Of a DNA stretch of 57,530 nucleotides, positions 8,281 to 36,284 are shown piece by piece; positions within the stretch are counted from its first letter, which is position 1; every line of letters begins with the position of its first letter. The notes beneath the pieces were generated by a model. It did not search any database. It saw only the letters and a program-made list of their open reading frames with translations, and was not told the DNA's origin. Source of the stretch: Thermoflexus hugenholtzii JAD2 (GTDB lineage: Bacteria; Pseudomonadota; Gammaproteobacteria; Burkholderiales; Burkholderiaceae); assembly GCA_943325205.2 (NCBI GenBank), contig CALPOM020000005.1, positions 1 to 57,530 of the forward strand, in the 5' to 3' direction. Position numbers and translations under genes: made by a program.

Positions 8281-9714
8281 TTATTCAAGTTTTGACTTGG
8301 AGCGAATGAAGGTTTGTCCTAACAGATAGGCCTTGGCCTGTTGGAGCATAAAGTCATCCACTGAGCCAAACTCGGGCAGCTTCTTATTCTTTTCTTTGAG
8401 GCGATCTTCAGGAGTCATCAAGGCATTTTTCTCTTCTAATGCTTGGAGTTCAGCCATGCGACGTTTCTCACGATCTGACAAAACTTGATCTTCGGCTTTT
8501 TGTTTATTTTTGAGATGATTCTCGCTATCAATTTCGCGTGTAATTAACACGTCATAGGGGTCACCTTCTGGATTTTGATCTACAGCAATATCCGGCTTGA
8601 TACCATATGCCTGTATTGATCTGCCATTGGGTGTGTAATAGTAGGCAGTTGTTATTTTGAGAGCGGTATCAGAAGTAATTTGACGCACTGTTTGAACCGA
8701 TCCCTTACCAAAGGTAGTTTTACCCATAATCGTTGCACGTTTCAGATCTTGTAATGCGCCTGAAACAATTTCTGAGGCTGACGCAGAATAGGCATTAGTG
8801 AGAACGACTAAGGGGATTTTTTTAAAAATAGCTGGCACATTAGATAGGGCATCGCCGCCCTCGGAAAGACGATAATTAGCAGGTTCAGCTTTATAGACTT
8901 GTTTACTACTAGCTGATTGGCCTTTGGTTGAAACGATCGTCGAGCCTGAAGGTAAAAAAGCTGCAGAAACTCCAACAGCCCCTTGGAGGATGCCACCGCC
9001 ATTATTTCGTAGATCAAGAACAACGCCCTTGATATCAGGGTTTGCTTGATAAGCCTCGGTAAGGCGCTTAGCCAAGTCGGGCACAGTTCTTTCTTGAAAA
9101 CTAGTAATTCGTACCCACAGAATAGCGTTGTCAATGAGCTTGGATTTTACTGATTGGACCTTAATTTCTGCGCGCGTGATAGTGATCGGAAAAGTCCGCT
9201 CCTCAGACTTACGGTAAATTGTGAGTGTAATTTTTGTTCCGGGCGCGCCGCGCATTTTACGTACGGCTTGATCGAGTGTCATGCCGCGGACAGGCTTATC
9301 ATCAAGGCGAGTAATTAAGTCGCCAGATTGAATACCGGCTTTAGCGGCTGGGGAATCCTCAATCGGGTTCATGACTTTAACTAAGCCATCTTCAGAGGAG
9401 ATCTCTATACCAAGGCCTGCAAAACGGCCTTGTGTTTGTTCTTGCATGTCTGAGAAATCTTTTGTATCCAAGAACGCCGAATGGGGGTCAAGACTGTTAA
9501 CCATGCCCTTAACTGCATCGGTTAAAAGTTTTTTATCTTCAATAGGTTCAACGTACTCTCTTTTAACACTTCCAAATACGGAAGTAAATAAGCGAAGTTC
9601 TTCTAGCGGTAAAGCGGCATTTTGTTGAGCTACGGCGGTGACCTGCCAGGTAATAACAACTCCGGCAATAGCACCAATTGCAATGAAGAGGGTATTTTTT
9701 AGTATTGGGCGCAT
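8281..9714 (-). CDS. ctpA: S41 family C-terminal processing peptidase
   Basis: PDZ domain plus S41 catalytic Ser/Lys motif (NAYSASASEIVSGAL...GKTTFGKGSVQ). Confidence 0.93.
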   Translation of the reverse strand: MRPILKNTLFIAIGAIAGVVITWQVTAVAQQNAALPLEELRLFTSVFGSVKREYVEPIEDKKLLTDAVKGMVNSLDPHSAFLDTKDFSDMQEQTQGRFAGLGIEISSEDGLVKVMNPIEDSPAAKAGIQSGDLITRLDDKPVRGMTLDQAVRKMRGAPGTKITLTIYRKSEERTFPITITRAEIKVQSVKSKLIDNAILWVRITSFQERTVPDLAKRLTEAYQANPDIKGVVLDLRNNGGGILQGAVGVSAAFLPSGSTIVSTKGQSASSKQVYKAEPANYRLSEGGDALSNVPAIFKKIPLVVLTNAYSASASEIVSGALQDLKRATIMGKTTFGKGSVQTVRQITSDTALKITTAYYYTPNGRSIQAYGIKPDIAVDQNPEGDPYDVLITREIDSENHLKNKQKAEDQVLSDREKRRMAELQALEEKNALMTPEDRLKEKNKKLPEFGSVDDFMLQQAKAYLLGQTFIRSKSKLE

Positions 9715-31851: not shown

Positions 31852-32808
31852 CTAGTCGTTATCAGAAAACATAGAAATGACCGAGTCGCCTCTACTAATC
31901 CGCAGCAATGTCTCTCCTAGTAGTGGAGCAATGGAGAGAACGCGTATTTTCGGATTGTATTTTGCCGCGTCTTTGAGGGGAATCGTATCTGTTACAACCA
32001 CTTGGTCGAGCTCAGATTCGGAGATACGGCTAATGGCATTGCCTGAGAAGACAGGATGGGTACAGTAGGCCATGACGCTTTTAGCGCCACGCTCTTTGAG
32101 CACTTGGGCGGCTTTGCAAAGGGTTCCACCGGTATCGATCATGTCATCCATGACAACGCACCGGCGATTCTCGACATCTCCAATGACATTCATGACTTCC
32201 GAAAGGTTTGCTTTTGGCCGCCGTTTATCAATAATGGCTAAATCACAGCCGAGTTGTTTAGCTAAAGCTCTAGCTCGTACGACTCCGCCGATATCGGGGG
32301 AGACAACTAATAAGTCACCGGTATTTTTATTTTGGAGATCCGCTAGAAGGACGGGTGAAGCATAAATATTATCCACTGGGATGTCAAAGAATCCTTGAAT
32401 TTGATCAGCATGCAAGTCCATGGTTAAAACACGGCTAATGCCGCTAACCGATTGCAACATATTGGCAACAATTCTGGCAGAAATGGCTACCCGGGCAGAG
32501 CGGGGACGACGATCTTGCCGAGCATAGCCGAAGTAAGGGATCACTGCGGTAATGGTGCCCGCTGATGCGCGTTTAAGAGCATCAATCATGATCATCAGTT
32601 CCATTAAATAATCATTGGTGGGAGCACATGTAGGTTGTAAAACAACGACGTGTTTGCTTCGGACATTTTCTTGAATTTCAACTTGGATTTCCCCATCAGA
32701 GAATTTGCCAACCATGGCTTTGCCAAGTTCAATGCCCATGTAGTCGGTGACGGCTTTAGCTAAAACAGGATTGGCGTTCCCGGTAAAGAGGACCATTGAT
32801 TCACTCAT
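31852..32808 (-). CDS. prs: Ribose-phosphate pyrophosphokinase
   Basis: [44 protein letters not shown]. Start trimmed to 32808. Confidence 0.97.
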
Positions 32809-32927
32809 ATTGACTCCAGGAGAGTTGGAAAAAGGTGTGGGTATGCATACACACAATGTGATACAGGGAGACGGCGATAAAAGCTGGAAAATAATGGGGA
32901 CATTTTCATAGAATGTCAGCTAGGAAT

Positions 32928-33004
32928 TGGCAGAGGAGGAAGGACTCGAACCTTCGGATGCCGGAATCAAAATCCGGTGCCTTAACCAACTTGGCGACTC
33001 CCCT
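32928..33004 (-). tRNA. tRNA-Gln (anticodon UUG), CCA encoded
   Basis: Minus: AGGGGAGTCGCCAAGTTGGTTAAGGCACCGGATTTTGATTCCGGCATCCGAAGGTTCGAGTCCTTCCTCCTCTGCCA folds as a cloverleaf; anticodon TTG. Confidence 0.97.
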
Positions 33005-33008
33005 CTTG

Positions 33009-33890
33009 TTAATTAATGGTAGAAATTAAATTATAAGCCGAGTGTCTAGGTAGACTTCTAACTTTGTATCCCTGCCATCTTTTTGGAAGATTTAGCATGC
33101 AATTCGTCAAACGTTCATGACTGTCAATACTATGAGGAATTTCACAAAATACGGAGCTTCCAGAGCCTGACATCGTGACCTGAGTATCTGGAAAATAATT
33201 TTCTAGCCACTCGATTGCAGTCTTCACTTCCAAAAAATTTCTAACAACAACATCTTGTAAATCATTTTTAAAGAGATTCGCTTCTGGAAATCTCTCTATA
33301 AAGTCAATTATTGTAATCGCTGAGTGATCTCTCGTCAAATATGGGTCGGAAAAAATGGCTTGGGTAGAGATAGCTACGCCAGGATAAATAATTAGATAAT
33401 TCTTTGGAGTCAGATCAATCACTTGGATTTTATCGCCCACACCTTCTACGAAAGCATTGTGCCCCTGGATAAAAAAGGGAACATCCGCACCTAACTGCAA
33501 TCCTAAATGCATCAGAGTTGCTGTTGATAGGTCTAATTCCCAAAGGCGATTAAGCCCAAGTAGAGTACTCGCCGCATCTGAAGAGCCACCGCCTAGGCCT
33601 GCGCCAATCGGAATATTTTTTATGAGATCAATATTGGCGCCCAGAAGAGTCTTCGAGAAAGTTTGAAGTAGCTTGGCAGCACGCACAACTAGATCAGAAT
33701 CGGGAGAAATATTGGGAAGAGGGTTTTGGCGAATAATATCGCCATCTTCTCGCCTACTGAGAATAACCTCATCAGACAAGTCGATTAATTGAAAGACGCT
33801 TTGAAGCAGGTGGTATCCGTCGCTTCTTTGGCCCACAACATGTAAAAATAAATTAATTTTTGCAGGTGCGGTGATGGATAAATTAGTCAT
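33009..33890 (-). CDS. ispE: 4-(cytidine 5'-diphospho)-2-C-methyl-D-erythritol kinase
   Basis: APAKINLFLHVVGQRSDGYHLLQSVFQ; IPIGAGLGGGSSDAAS. Confidence 0.97.
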   Translation of the reverse strand: MTNLSITAPAKINLFLHVVGQRSDGYHLLQSVFQLIDLSDEVILSRREDGDIIRQNPLPNISPDSDLVVRAAKLLQTFSKTLLGANIDLIKNIPIGAGLGGGSSDAASTLLGLNRLWELDLSTATLMHLGLQLGADVPFFIQGHNAFVEGVGDKIQVIDLTPKNYLIIYPGVAISTQAIFSDPYLTRDHSAITIIDFIERFPEANLFKNDLQDVVVRNFLEVKTAIEWLENYFPDTQVTMSGSGSSVFCEIPHSIDSHERLTNCMLNLPKRWQGYKVRSLPRHSAYNLISTIN

Positions 33891-35412
33891 TCAATAAATC
33901 AAAAACTAAACGAATATCAATATCCTGTCCGTCAGTTGAGCGGTTCATATTGAGGCGTTGCAAGGCATTTTTTTCTGTCCAGGTAAAACTAAGTTGCCAG
34001 CCATCTTGCATAATTTCGCTGACTTGGCCTAAGGGATTTCTTTTAATTGTCCCGGGTGAGCCAGCTCGTGTAAATCCAGCTAACCAAGAGGATAGTCCTC
34101 GAGCAGGGATTGGAAGACCAAGCGCATCAAAAACTAATTGGTCAGCATCAACGGCAGTAATCACCTTACCATTTTGCTCTAAGGTTGCAACACTTGGACG
34201 AACTTGAATTTTTGCAATTGAGGTACCAAATGGACCCCTAATTTCCAGCTCATCGTTTAATTGTTCATGGGTCAAGGTGAAGGCGCCTGAGCCACCATTT
34301 TGATTAGAGGCACCGTTAATTTTGACGGCAAAGCGTCCATCCCATTTCTTTTTTTGAGTTTGGATTTTCGGCTCTTGTAAAGTCCATTCGGGATAAAGCC
34401 TTTTTAAGGTATTTTTTAAAACTGGGTGGTTGGCATTGAGAGACTCGGCTTTTTTCCAAATAGCTTTTGCTTCTTCTATTTTTCCAGTAACCCAAAAAAC
34501 CTCCCCTAAATGCGCTCCGACTTCGGCTTCTGGAAGTTTATTAAAACTCTTTTCTAAATATTCAATCGCTAGATCAAACCGACCAAGTCGAAAATAAATC
34601 CATCCAACACTATCTAATATGTATGGGTCTTCGGGAGAGATTTGATGGGCTTTTTCGATCAGCTGTAAAGCTTCATCAAGTCGAATATTTCGATCCGCAA
34701 ACGAATAACCAAGGGCGTTTAGTACACTTGCGTCGTCAGGCTTATTTCTTAATAGCCCACGTAATACAGATTCCATCGTTTTATAGTTACCAGATTTTTC
34801 TTGGCCTAGTGCATATAAAAAAAGTAAATTAGGGTTTTTTGTAAGTGGTTTTAGGCTATCAATGATTGTCGAAAAGGCCAGCAGCGCTTCATCTTGATTG
34901 GGGGCTTTAGAGACGATATTTTGGAGCTGTAATAAAAAAGTATCTTGCTTATCGGTGTTTTGTTTTGCCAGAAAGGCAATGGTTAATTCGACTGATTCTC
35001 GCCACTTATTATTGATCATTAGTAAGGTAATGAGTACTTCTTTTGAAGACGAATCGTTGCTTGGGGATAAATCATCCCACAGTTTTGCAGCCTCTAAAGC
35101 AAATTGGGGGGATTGTGCGGATAATGCCAGCTCCATAGCACGCTGCGCTACCCGGGGATCTTTACTAGAACGCGCAAGGCCTAAAAGAGTTTGATAGGCT
35201 GGCCCGATTTCACCGCGTTGGATCGCGATTTCTGAACTGAGGAATAAATAAATTTGCTCAGCGCGTTGTTGAGCGTTTTTGTCTGCAGCTAGATCTTCTT
35301 CAGCCGATTGCGCATAGGTGATTAACGGCATACTTAAAAGAATACCAAGGCCTAGGCTAATGAAGCAAAAAAAGAATACTTTTCTAAAATGCGCTAAATT
35401 GTGTATTAACAT
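33883..35412 (-). CDS. Fusion: secreted TPR protein (N-terminal) with LolB-like lipoprotein carrier domain (C-terminal)
   Basis: TPR repeats (DDASVLNALGYSFADRNIRLDEALQLIEKAHQISPEDPYILDSVGWIYFRLGRFDLAIEYLEKS) then a LolB-like block from about W357 (WDGRFAVKINGA...SGAFTLTHEQLNDELEIRGPFGTSIAKIQV...LGLPIPARGLSSWLAGF...GW.LSFT). Confidence 0.85.
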   Translation of the reverse strand: MLIHNLAHFRKVFFFCFISLGLGILLSMPLITYAQSAEEDLAADKNAQQRAEQIYLFLSSEIAIQRGEIGPAYQTLLGLARSSKDPRVAQRAMELALSAQSPQFALEAAKLWDDLSPSNDSSSKEVLITLLMINNKWRESVELTIAFLAKQNTDKQDTFLLQLQNIVSKAPNQDEALLAFSTIIDSLKPLTKNPNLLFLYALGQEKSGNYKTMESVLRGLLRNKPDDASVLNALGYSFADRNIRLDEALQLIEKAHQISPEDPYILDSVGWIYFRLGRFDLAIEYLEKSFNKLPEAEVGAHLGEVFWVTGKIEEAKAIWKKAESLNANHPVLKNTLKRLYPEWTLQEPKIQTQKKKWDGRFAVKINGASNQNGGSGAFTLTHEQLNDELEIRGPFGTSIAKIQVRPSVATLEQNGKVITAVDADQLVFDALGLPIPARGLSSWLAGFTRAGSPGTIKRNPLGQVSEIMQDGWQLSFTWTEKNALQRLNMNRSTDGQDIDIRLVFDLLND

Positions 35413-35450: not shown

Positions 35451-36284
35451 ATGCCAGAATTGCCGGAAGTAGAAGTCACCAAGTTAGGCATTGAGCCCTA
35501 TGTAGTTGGTCAAGCAGTAAGTCATCTGATTATTCACGATGGCCGTTTACGCTGGCCTGTTCCGATTCATTTAAAAACAACCTTACAAGGTCAACTATGC
35601 CAAGCAATTCATCGTCGCGGCAAATATTTATTGTTTCAGTTTGAGCACGGTGTACTAATTATTCATTTGGGGATGACCGGTGTTTTGAGAATACAACATC
35701 GCCATGAGGTGCCAAAGAAACACGATCGGGTTGAAATTGTTTTTGATGAATTTTCGCTACGCTTGCATGACCCACGCAAGTTTGGAGCGATTTGGTGGCA
35801 TCCGCGCAGTCAAGGACCGGTAGAGCAGTTACCTATGCTTGCTCGGCTTGGACTTGAGCCATTAGAGGCAAACTTTGCAGGTCAACTAGGGGGTAAGCAC
35901 CTGCATCAGGCATCACGCGGTAGAACAATTGCGATTAAGCAATTTTTACTAGCTGGGCATGCTGTTGTGGGGGTGGGCAATATTTACTGTTCAGAGAGTT
36001 TATTTGATGCAAGGATTAATCCCAAGACAGCAGCAGGTAAGATTTCTGAGGAGCGCTATATGATTTTGGCAGAGTCCATTCGAAAGATATTACAGCGTGC
36101 CATTGCGGCTGGCGGAAGTAGCTTAAAGGATTTCGTAAATAGTCATGGGGAGCCTGGGCATTTTATGATGCAAACCAAGGCTTATGACCGTGCCAACTTA
36201 CCATGTACTATATGCCAGCGACCTATCAAGCAAATTAAGCAAACGGGGCGGTCGACGTTTTACTGCGCAACATGTCAGAAATAA
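35451..36284 (+). CDS. mutM: Formamidopyrimidine-DNA glycosylase
   Basis: MPELPEVEVTKLGIEPYVVGQ; C-terminal zinc finger CTICQRPIKQIKQTGRSTFYCATCQ. Confidence 0.97.
   Translation: MPELPEVEVTKLGIEPYVVGQAVSHLIIHDGRLRWPVPIHLKTTLQGQLCQAIHRRGKYLLFQFEHGVLIIHLGMTGVLRIQHRHEVPKKHDRVEIVFDEFSLRLHDPRKFGAIWWHPRSQGPVEQLPMLARLGLEPLEANFAGQLGGKHLHQASRGRTIAIKQFLLAGHAVVGVGNIYCSESLFDARINPKTAAGKISEERYMILAESIRKILQRAIAAGGSSLKDFVNSHGEPGHFMMQTKAYDRANLPCTICQRPIKQIKQTGRSTFYCATCQK

Follow-up and report, generated by a model that had tools for sequence, protein, structure and literature searches.

Throughout one genus of bacteria of the freshwater type, which genome size, G+C and gene content mark as probably Polynucleobacter, the receptor LolB is encoded as the C-terminal domain of a longer protein, which begins with a TPR part resembling LbcA and carries no strict lipobox. 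We consider it probable that a single ancestral deletion joined the adjacent genes lbcA and lolB in this genus, and that the product is a soluble or peripheral, bifunctional periplasmic protein, with both functions predicted here from sequence. The fusion was studied in a stretch of 57,530 nucleotides, hereafter the window, in which the ORF occupies positions 33883–35412 of the reverse strand and encodes 509 amino acids from an ATG start.

All coordinates within the ORF refer to the reverse strand. A Sec signal peptide of the signal-peptidase-I type, read from the sequence and without a lipobox (residues 1–34; 35311–35412), is followed by an LbcA-like TPR domain, shorter than the separate LbcA (residues 45–340; 34393–35280), a linker (residues 341–356; 34345–34392) in place of the stop codon that ends a separate TPR gene and of lolB's own signal peptide, lipobox and tether, and the LolB domain (residues 357–505; 33898–34344). 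The latter contains the protruding hook of LolB, RGPFGTS (residues 392–398; 34219–34239), in which Phe395 aligns with Leu68 of E. coli LolB. For residue numbering we used what we take to be the E. coli LolB sequence, and the hook and Trp117 were confirmed by alignment to PDB entries. The original prediction of a single 509-residue ORF with N-terminal TPRs and a C-terminal LolB holds, with the start of the LolB domain moved from about residue 350 to 357.

Profile searches recovered both parts on this ORF, as had been anticipated. Over residues 358–505 the Pfam LolB family PF03550 scored 79.1 bits (E 4.6e-22), above its cut-off of 23.7, and several TPR families of Pfam matched at about residues 194–295. 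The NCBIfam equivalog for LolB, TIGR00548, scored 40.5 bits, below its cut-off of 59.6, thus the domain is a divergent LolB; its PDB matches were the LolB proteins of E. coli, X. campestris and others. The AlphaFold2 model, made from an alignment of three sequences, was confident for the TPR part and left the LolB domain unresolved (pLDDT 25–45). Foldseek searches with this model returned matches to the TPR part only, with LbcA at rank 1.

The fused gene sits in a conserved neighbourhood. Its stop overlaps by 8 bases with ispE (33009–33890, reverse strand), beyond which lie tRNA-Gln (TTG) (32928–33004) and prs (31852–32856), both also on the reverse strand, while the conserved neighbour mutM (35451–36284, forward strand) diverges from it. 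The order mutM / TPR-lolB-ispE-prs is common to the fused and the separate states.

A sequencing or assembly error could in principle have merged two separate genes, since the window comes from a draft genome of 206 contigs, and a read-through of this kind, caused by a short tandem duplication, is present in one other genome (L180, described below). The junction, for which re-reading of positions 34350–34400 had been proposed, corresponds to the linker at 34345–34392. TPR and LolB share one frame in 96/96 same-genus loci examined, the window's locus included, with the same segment lost in each and many of the genomes in single contigs. Almost all of the same-genus open frames measure 487–546 aa, and a few end early at contig ends. 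A contig scan with the fusion protein found the same open fusion in two other MAGs at 97–98% identity. Because the fusion recurs throughout the genus and in these two MAGs, a frameshift or sequencing error at the junction is excluded. Purifying selection also acts on both sides of the junction: over 27 pairs the median dN/dS values of the TPR part (0.031) and LolB (0.034) show the two domains to be under equal purifying selection at about 0.03, compared with 0.10 in the linker and 0.25 in the signal peptide. Taken with the 96 loci, this leaves a merging error with a practically negligible probability.

The expectation that related beta-proteobacteria carry a TPR gene followed by a separate lolB agreed with what was seen in the other genera examined, where the two are separate ORFs. 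Across 21 further genera of the family, which is very probably the Burkholderiaceae, lolB is a gene of its own, nearly always directly behind an LbcA-like TPR gene, and the two often overlap in TGATG. Every clear LolB in the other Burkholderiaceae genera checked has a lipobox of the LxxC type; in the separate protein the lipoprotein signal peptide closes with a lipobox resembling L[AST][GAS]C, and a tether of about 15–35 residues comes next. In the fusion, the LbcA part reaches its usual end (...TLKRL) and passes through a linker of about 10–16 residues into WDGRF, which forms the first strand of LolB. Nothing is left of the stop codon of the TPR gene, nor of lolB's signal peptide, lipobox and tether. 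On a tree of the TPR parts, 30 fused sequences fall on one side of a single branch with a support of 100/100, which is in keeping with the fusion having arisen once. The ancestral deletion would have taken away lbcA's stop codon and, on the lolB side, the signal peptide, the lipobox and the flexible tether.

We also screened for fusions outside the genus. The list comprised 150 genomes from the order and 300 from the family; the 20 loci in which LolB lay within a long open frame were inspected, and none held a comparable fusion. Only in L180 did TPR and LolB share a frame, and the other loci were overlapping frames in GC-rich DNA. In L180 (G211 contig 81) a tandem duplication of about 36 bp or more at the 3' end of lbcA shifts the frame, such that TPR and a lolB with an intact lipobox (LAGC) are read as one; this is either a natural read-through or an assembly error, and the duplication shows how easily the two frames are joined. 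Two genomes of about 1.2 Mb from another genus (L143 and L149, genus g8) have a lipobox-bearing lolB beside ispE and prs, and no LbcA-like TPR gene was found within the 6 kb examined, so LbcA seems to have been lost in these small genomes. In a third genome of the family, 99% complete, the sole LolB-like match was very weak (L158; G118 contig 17, 15353–15571; E 0.001) and the stretch examined held no LbcA-like ORF; its LolB is possibly highly divergent or lost.

The fusion is the only LolB found where it occurs. Exactly one LolB was counted in 97 of 101 same-genus genomes, and all 79 genomes that were at least 90% complete had one; in single-contig genomes of the genus with 99–100% completeness, the fusion is this only LolB. 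A second lolB, raised earlier as something to look for, was not found in the window's genome (93.8% complete) even at E ≤ 10, and at the same threshold no credible second copy appeared in 12 genomes of the genus, most of them closed. Since the fusion is the sole LolB-family protein found, the last step of lipoprotein transport uses either an unanchored LolB or no LolB. The remaining Lol route in the window's genome comprises one LolA, one LolF-type transporter and a Pal with an LGAC lipobox, hence outer-membrane lipoproteins are made and need delivery.

The absence of a lipobox at the N-terminus, noted originally for the window's protein, extends to the genus. The window's protein starts with a Sec signal peptide (...MPLITYAQ); its sole cysteine, Cys16, lies within VFFFC and is not a lipobox. 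A strict lipobox was found in 0 of 95 distinct fused proteins, and 64 of the 95 have no cysteine at all, so lipidation of the Lgt type is impossible in those 64. A loose PROSITE-style pattern matched three fused proteins, and a small clade (L092, L111 and L123) has a loose ASAC; these occurrences are scattered, and in most of these proteins an AxA-like site lies downstream. LbcA-like proteins encoded separately in the family (TPR genes of L129–L157) likewise have signal-peptidase-I signals without a lipobox, therefore the fusion retained the export signal of the soluble partner and gave up the lipid of LolB. In Burkholderiaceae with such a lipobox-less LbcA, CtpA may be untethered from the outer membrane. 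Alternative starts of the window's ORF were considered and rejected as sources of a lipobox: upstream, the previous in-frame stop leaves only three more codons (NGC) before the ATG, and starting internally would deprive LolB of a signal altogether.

The receptor is very probably soluble, or anchored otherwise than by lipid, as the original prediction had proposed and as the absent lipobox and cysteine suggest. How far LolB is free in the periplasm is where a further explanation, which otherwise overlaps with ours, differs: LolB could be held at the outer membrane by an uncleaved signal or by TPRs binding an outer-membrane or peptidoglycan protein, or be released by proteolysis of the linker. 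LbcA of P. aeruginosa does bind outer-membrane lipoprotein substrates (PMC11021448), CtpA slowly degrades LbcA in vitro, and within the mature protein constraint is weakest in the linker. Against this explanation, a simple pattern count placed a signal-peptidase-I-like site after the hydrophobic core in 91 of the 95 fused proteins, and no second signal or anchor-like segment was seen in the linker. Such a localisation or release strikes us as less likely than not. We favour a protein that would be exported by the LbcA signal peptide and cleaved by signal peptidase I, the mature form being soluble or merely peripherally membrane-bound, with two working ends.

The TPR part, left unnamed in the original prediction, is identified by its alignments as LbcA, the activating adaptor of CtpA, a protease connected with the cell wall. 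Its best PDB match by sequence is LbcA (PA4667) of P. aeruginosa (8sxe_C, E 6.9e-45), and the alignment falls into two stretches, one over the N-terminal adaptor region that binds CtpA and one over the C-terminal TPRs. The fusion lacks LbcA's middle TPRs; separate LbcA-like proteins of the family are about 200 residues longer. An H1-like helix, RAEQIYLFLSSEIAIQR (residues 50–66; 35215–35265, reverse strand), is the equivalent of the CtpA-binding helix of LbcA, as judged by alignment to 8sxe_C with interface residues taken from PMC11021448, and the contacts that H1 makes with CtpA are conserved. In P. aeruginosa, changing LbcA Leu57 or Val87 to Lys abolishes CtpA activity (PMC11021448); these residues align with Leu58 and Val88 of the window's protein, and across the genus the positions are Leu and Leu/Ile/Val, respectively. 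The predicted partner is encoded in the same window (8281–9714, reverse strand; 477 aa). No other S41 protease gene was found in this genome, and a single such protease was counted in 51 of 51 genomes. The partner is a CtpA rather than a Prc: it matches P. aeruginosa CtpA with E 3e-105 and conserves the NDR residues L41, L43, L46 and F49. Given this homology and the conserved interface, the N-terminal part would bind and activate CtpA and present substrates to it.

In the LolB half, the residue at the position of E. coli Leu68 in the hook is hydrophobic (V/M/I/L/F) in 95/95 fused proteins, and W443, the counterpart of E. coli W117, is likewise conserved in 95/95. The position of E. coli Trp52 is Leu in all 95 (residue 380 of the window's protein; 34273–34275), therefore the lipid pocket is changed; separate LolBs of the family mostly retain Trp here. 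In E. coli, the W52P substitution makes LolB defective as a lipid receptor (PMC10368991). One reading of this loss is that the domain is no longer an insertase, that LolA is bifunctional as is known in Caulobacter (PMC11784454), and that the LolB fold now serves LbcA and CtpA, e.g., by presenting acylated lipoproteins for degradation, given that the substrates of LbcA-CtpA in P. aeruginosa include outer-membrane lipoproteins (PMC6050968, PMC11021448). However, the hook and W117 are conserved and the whole domain is strongly constrained, so we hold this reading to be improbable. We prefer a LolB domain that would receive acylated cargo from LolA and insert it into the outer membrane via its hydrophobic hook.

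By its usual description, LolB is a lipoprotein of the outer membrane, where its anchor ensures delivery to the correct membrane, and the original prediction asked how LolA cargo could be inserted without it. Insertion as such is no deep puzzle, because engineered soluble LolB works: F. johnsoniae LolB1 C17G fully complements a deletion (PMC11885536), E. coli LolB, according to the same paper, likewise manages without its lipid anchor, and a review lists the anchor as dispensable for several lipoproteins, engineered soluble LolB included (PMC11784454). The part of the puzzle that stands is membrane selectivity, as anchor-less mLolB in E. coli leads to lipoproteins mislocalised to the inner membrane (PMC10368991). 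Candidates for selectivity without an anchor are the binding of outer-membrane or peptidoglycan proteins by the TPRs, the pocket altered from Trp52 to Leu, and tolerated mislocalisation. A more speculative idea, to which we attach a low probability, is that the fusion couples the delivery of lipoproteins to the turnover of lipoproteins or cell-wall hydrolases, with cargo that the LolB domain receives from LolA either inserted into the outer membrane or, in the case of CtpA substrates like a peptidoglycan endopeptidase, passed directly to the attached LbcA-CtpA. If true, one soluble protein would choose between placement and destruction.

What is new is the combination of lbcA and lolB and the natural loss of the anchor, the separate parts being already known. 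The open literature yielded neither a description of a LolB fusion nor one of a LolB that is unlipidated in nature, most subscription papers lying outside this coverage. A whole genus with an unanchored LolB as its sole LolB offers a natural test case for what engineered constructs have shown, and selectivity without an anchor becomes testable in nature. The fusion also unites lipoprotein insertion and the proteolytic adaptor of LbcA-CtpA in a single polypeptide. This suggests that the two genes stand together in the conserved lbcA-lolB operon because they are functionally linked, and not by chance alone.

Compared with known systems, the fusion shares with LolB of E. coli and P. aeruginosa the family (PF03550), a hydrophobic hook with a P-x-G core, W117, and the presence of LolA and LolF in the genome, but it has no lipobox or tether, is joined to LbcA and has Leu for Trp52. 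LbcA (PA4667) of P. aeruginosa likewise stands in an operon, lbcA-lolB-ipk, and the residues of the CtpA-binding helix and a CtpA orthologue are found here too; however, that protein is an outer-membrane lipoprotein, lipidated at Cys17 (PMC11021448), with 11 TPRs and apart from LolB, whereas the protein here lacks the lipid, is about 200 residues shorter and is joined to LolB. Engineered soluble LolB, i.e., E. coli mLolB and F. johnsoniae LolB1 C17G, resembles the fusion in the lipid-free export via signal peptidase I that is predicted for the latter, yet these are artificial single-domain variants that function in the laboratory, and the fusion is the natural sole copy in its genus. The bifunctional LolA of Caulobacter is a case of outer-membrane lipoprotein insertion without an anchored LolB, although there the LolA chaperone does both jobs, while a true LolB domain remains in the fusion. 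Finally, NlpI-Prc of E. coli also pairs a TPR adaptor with a C-terminal-processing protease, but it has no sequence homology (PMC6050968) and no link to LolB.
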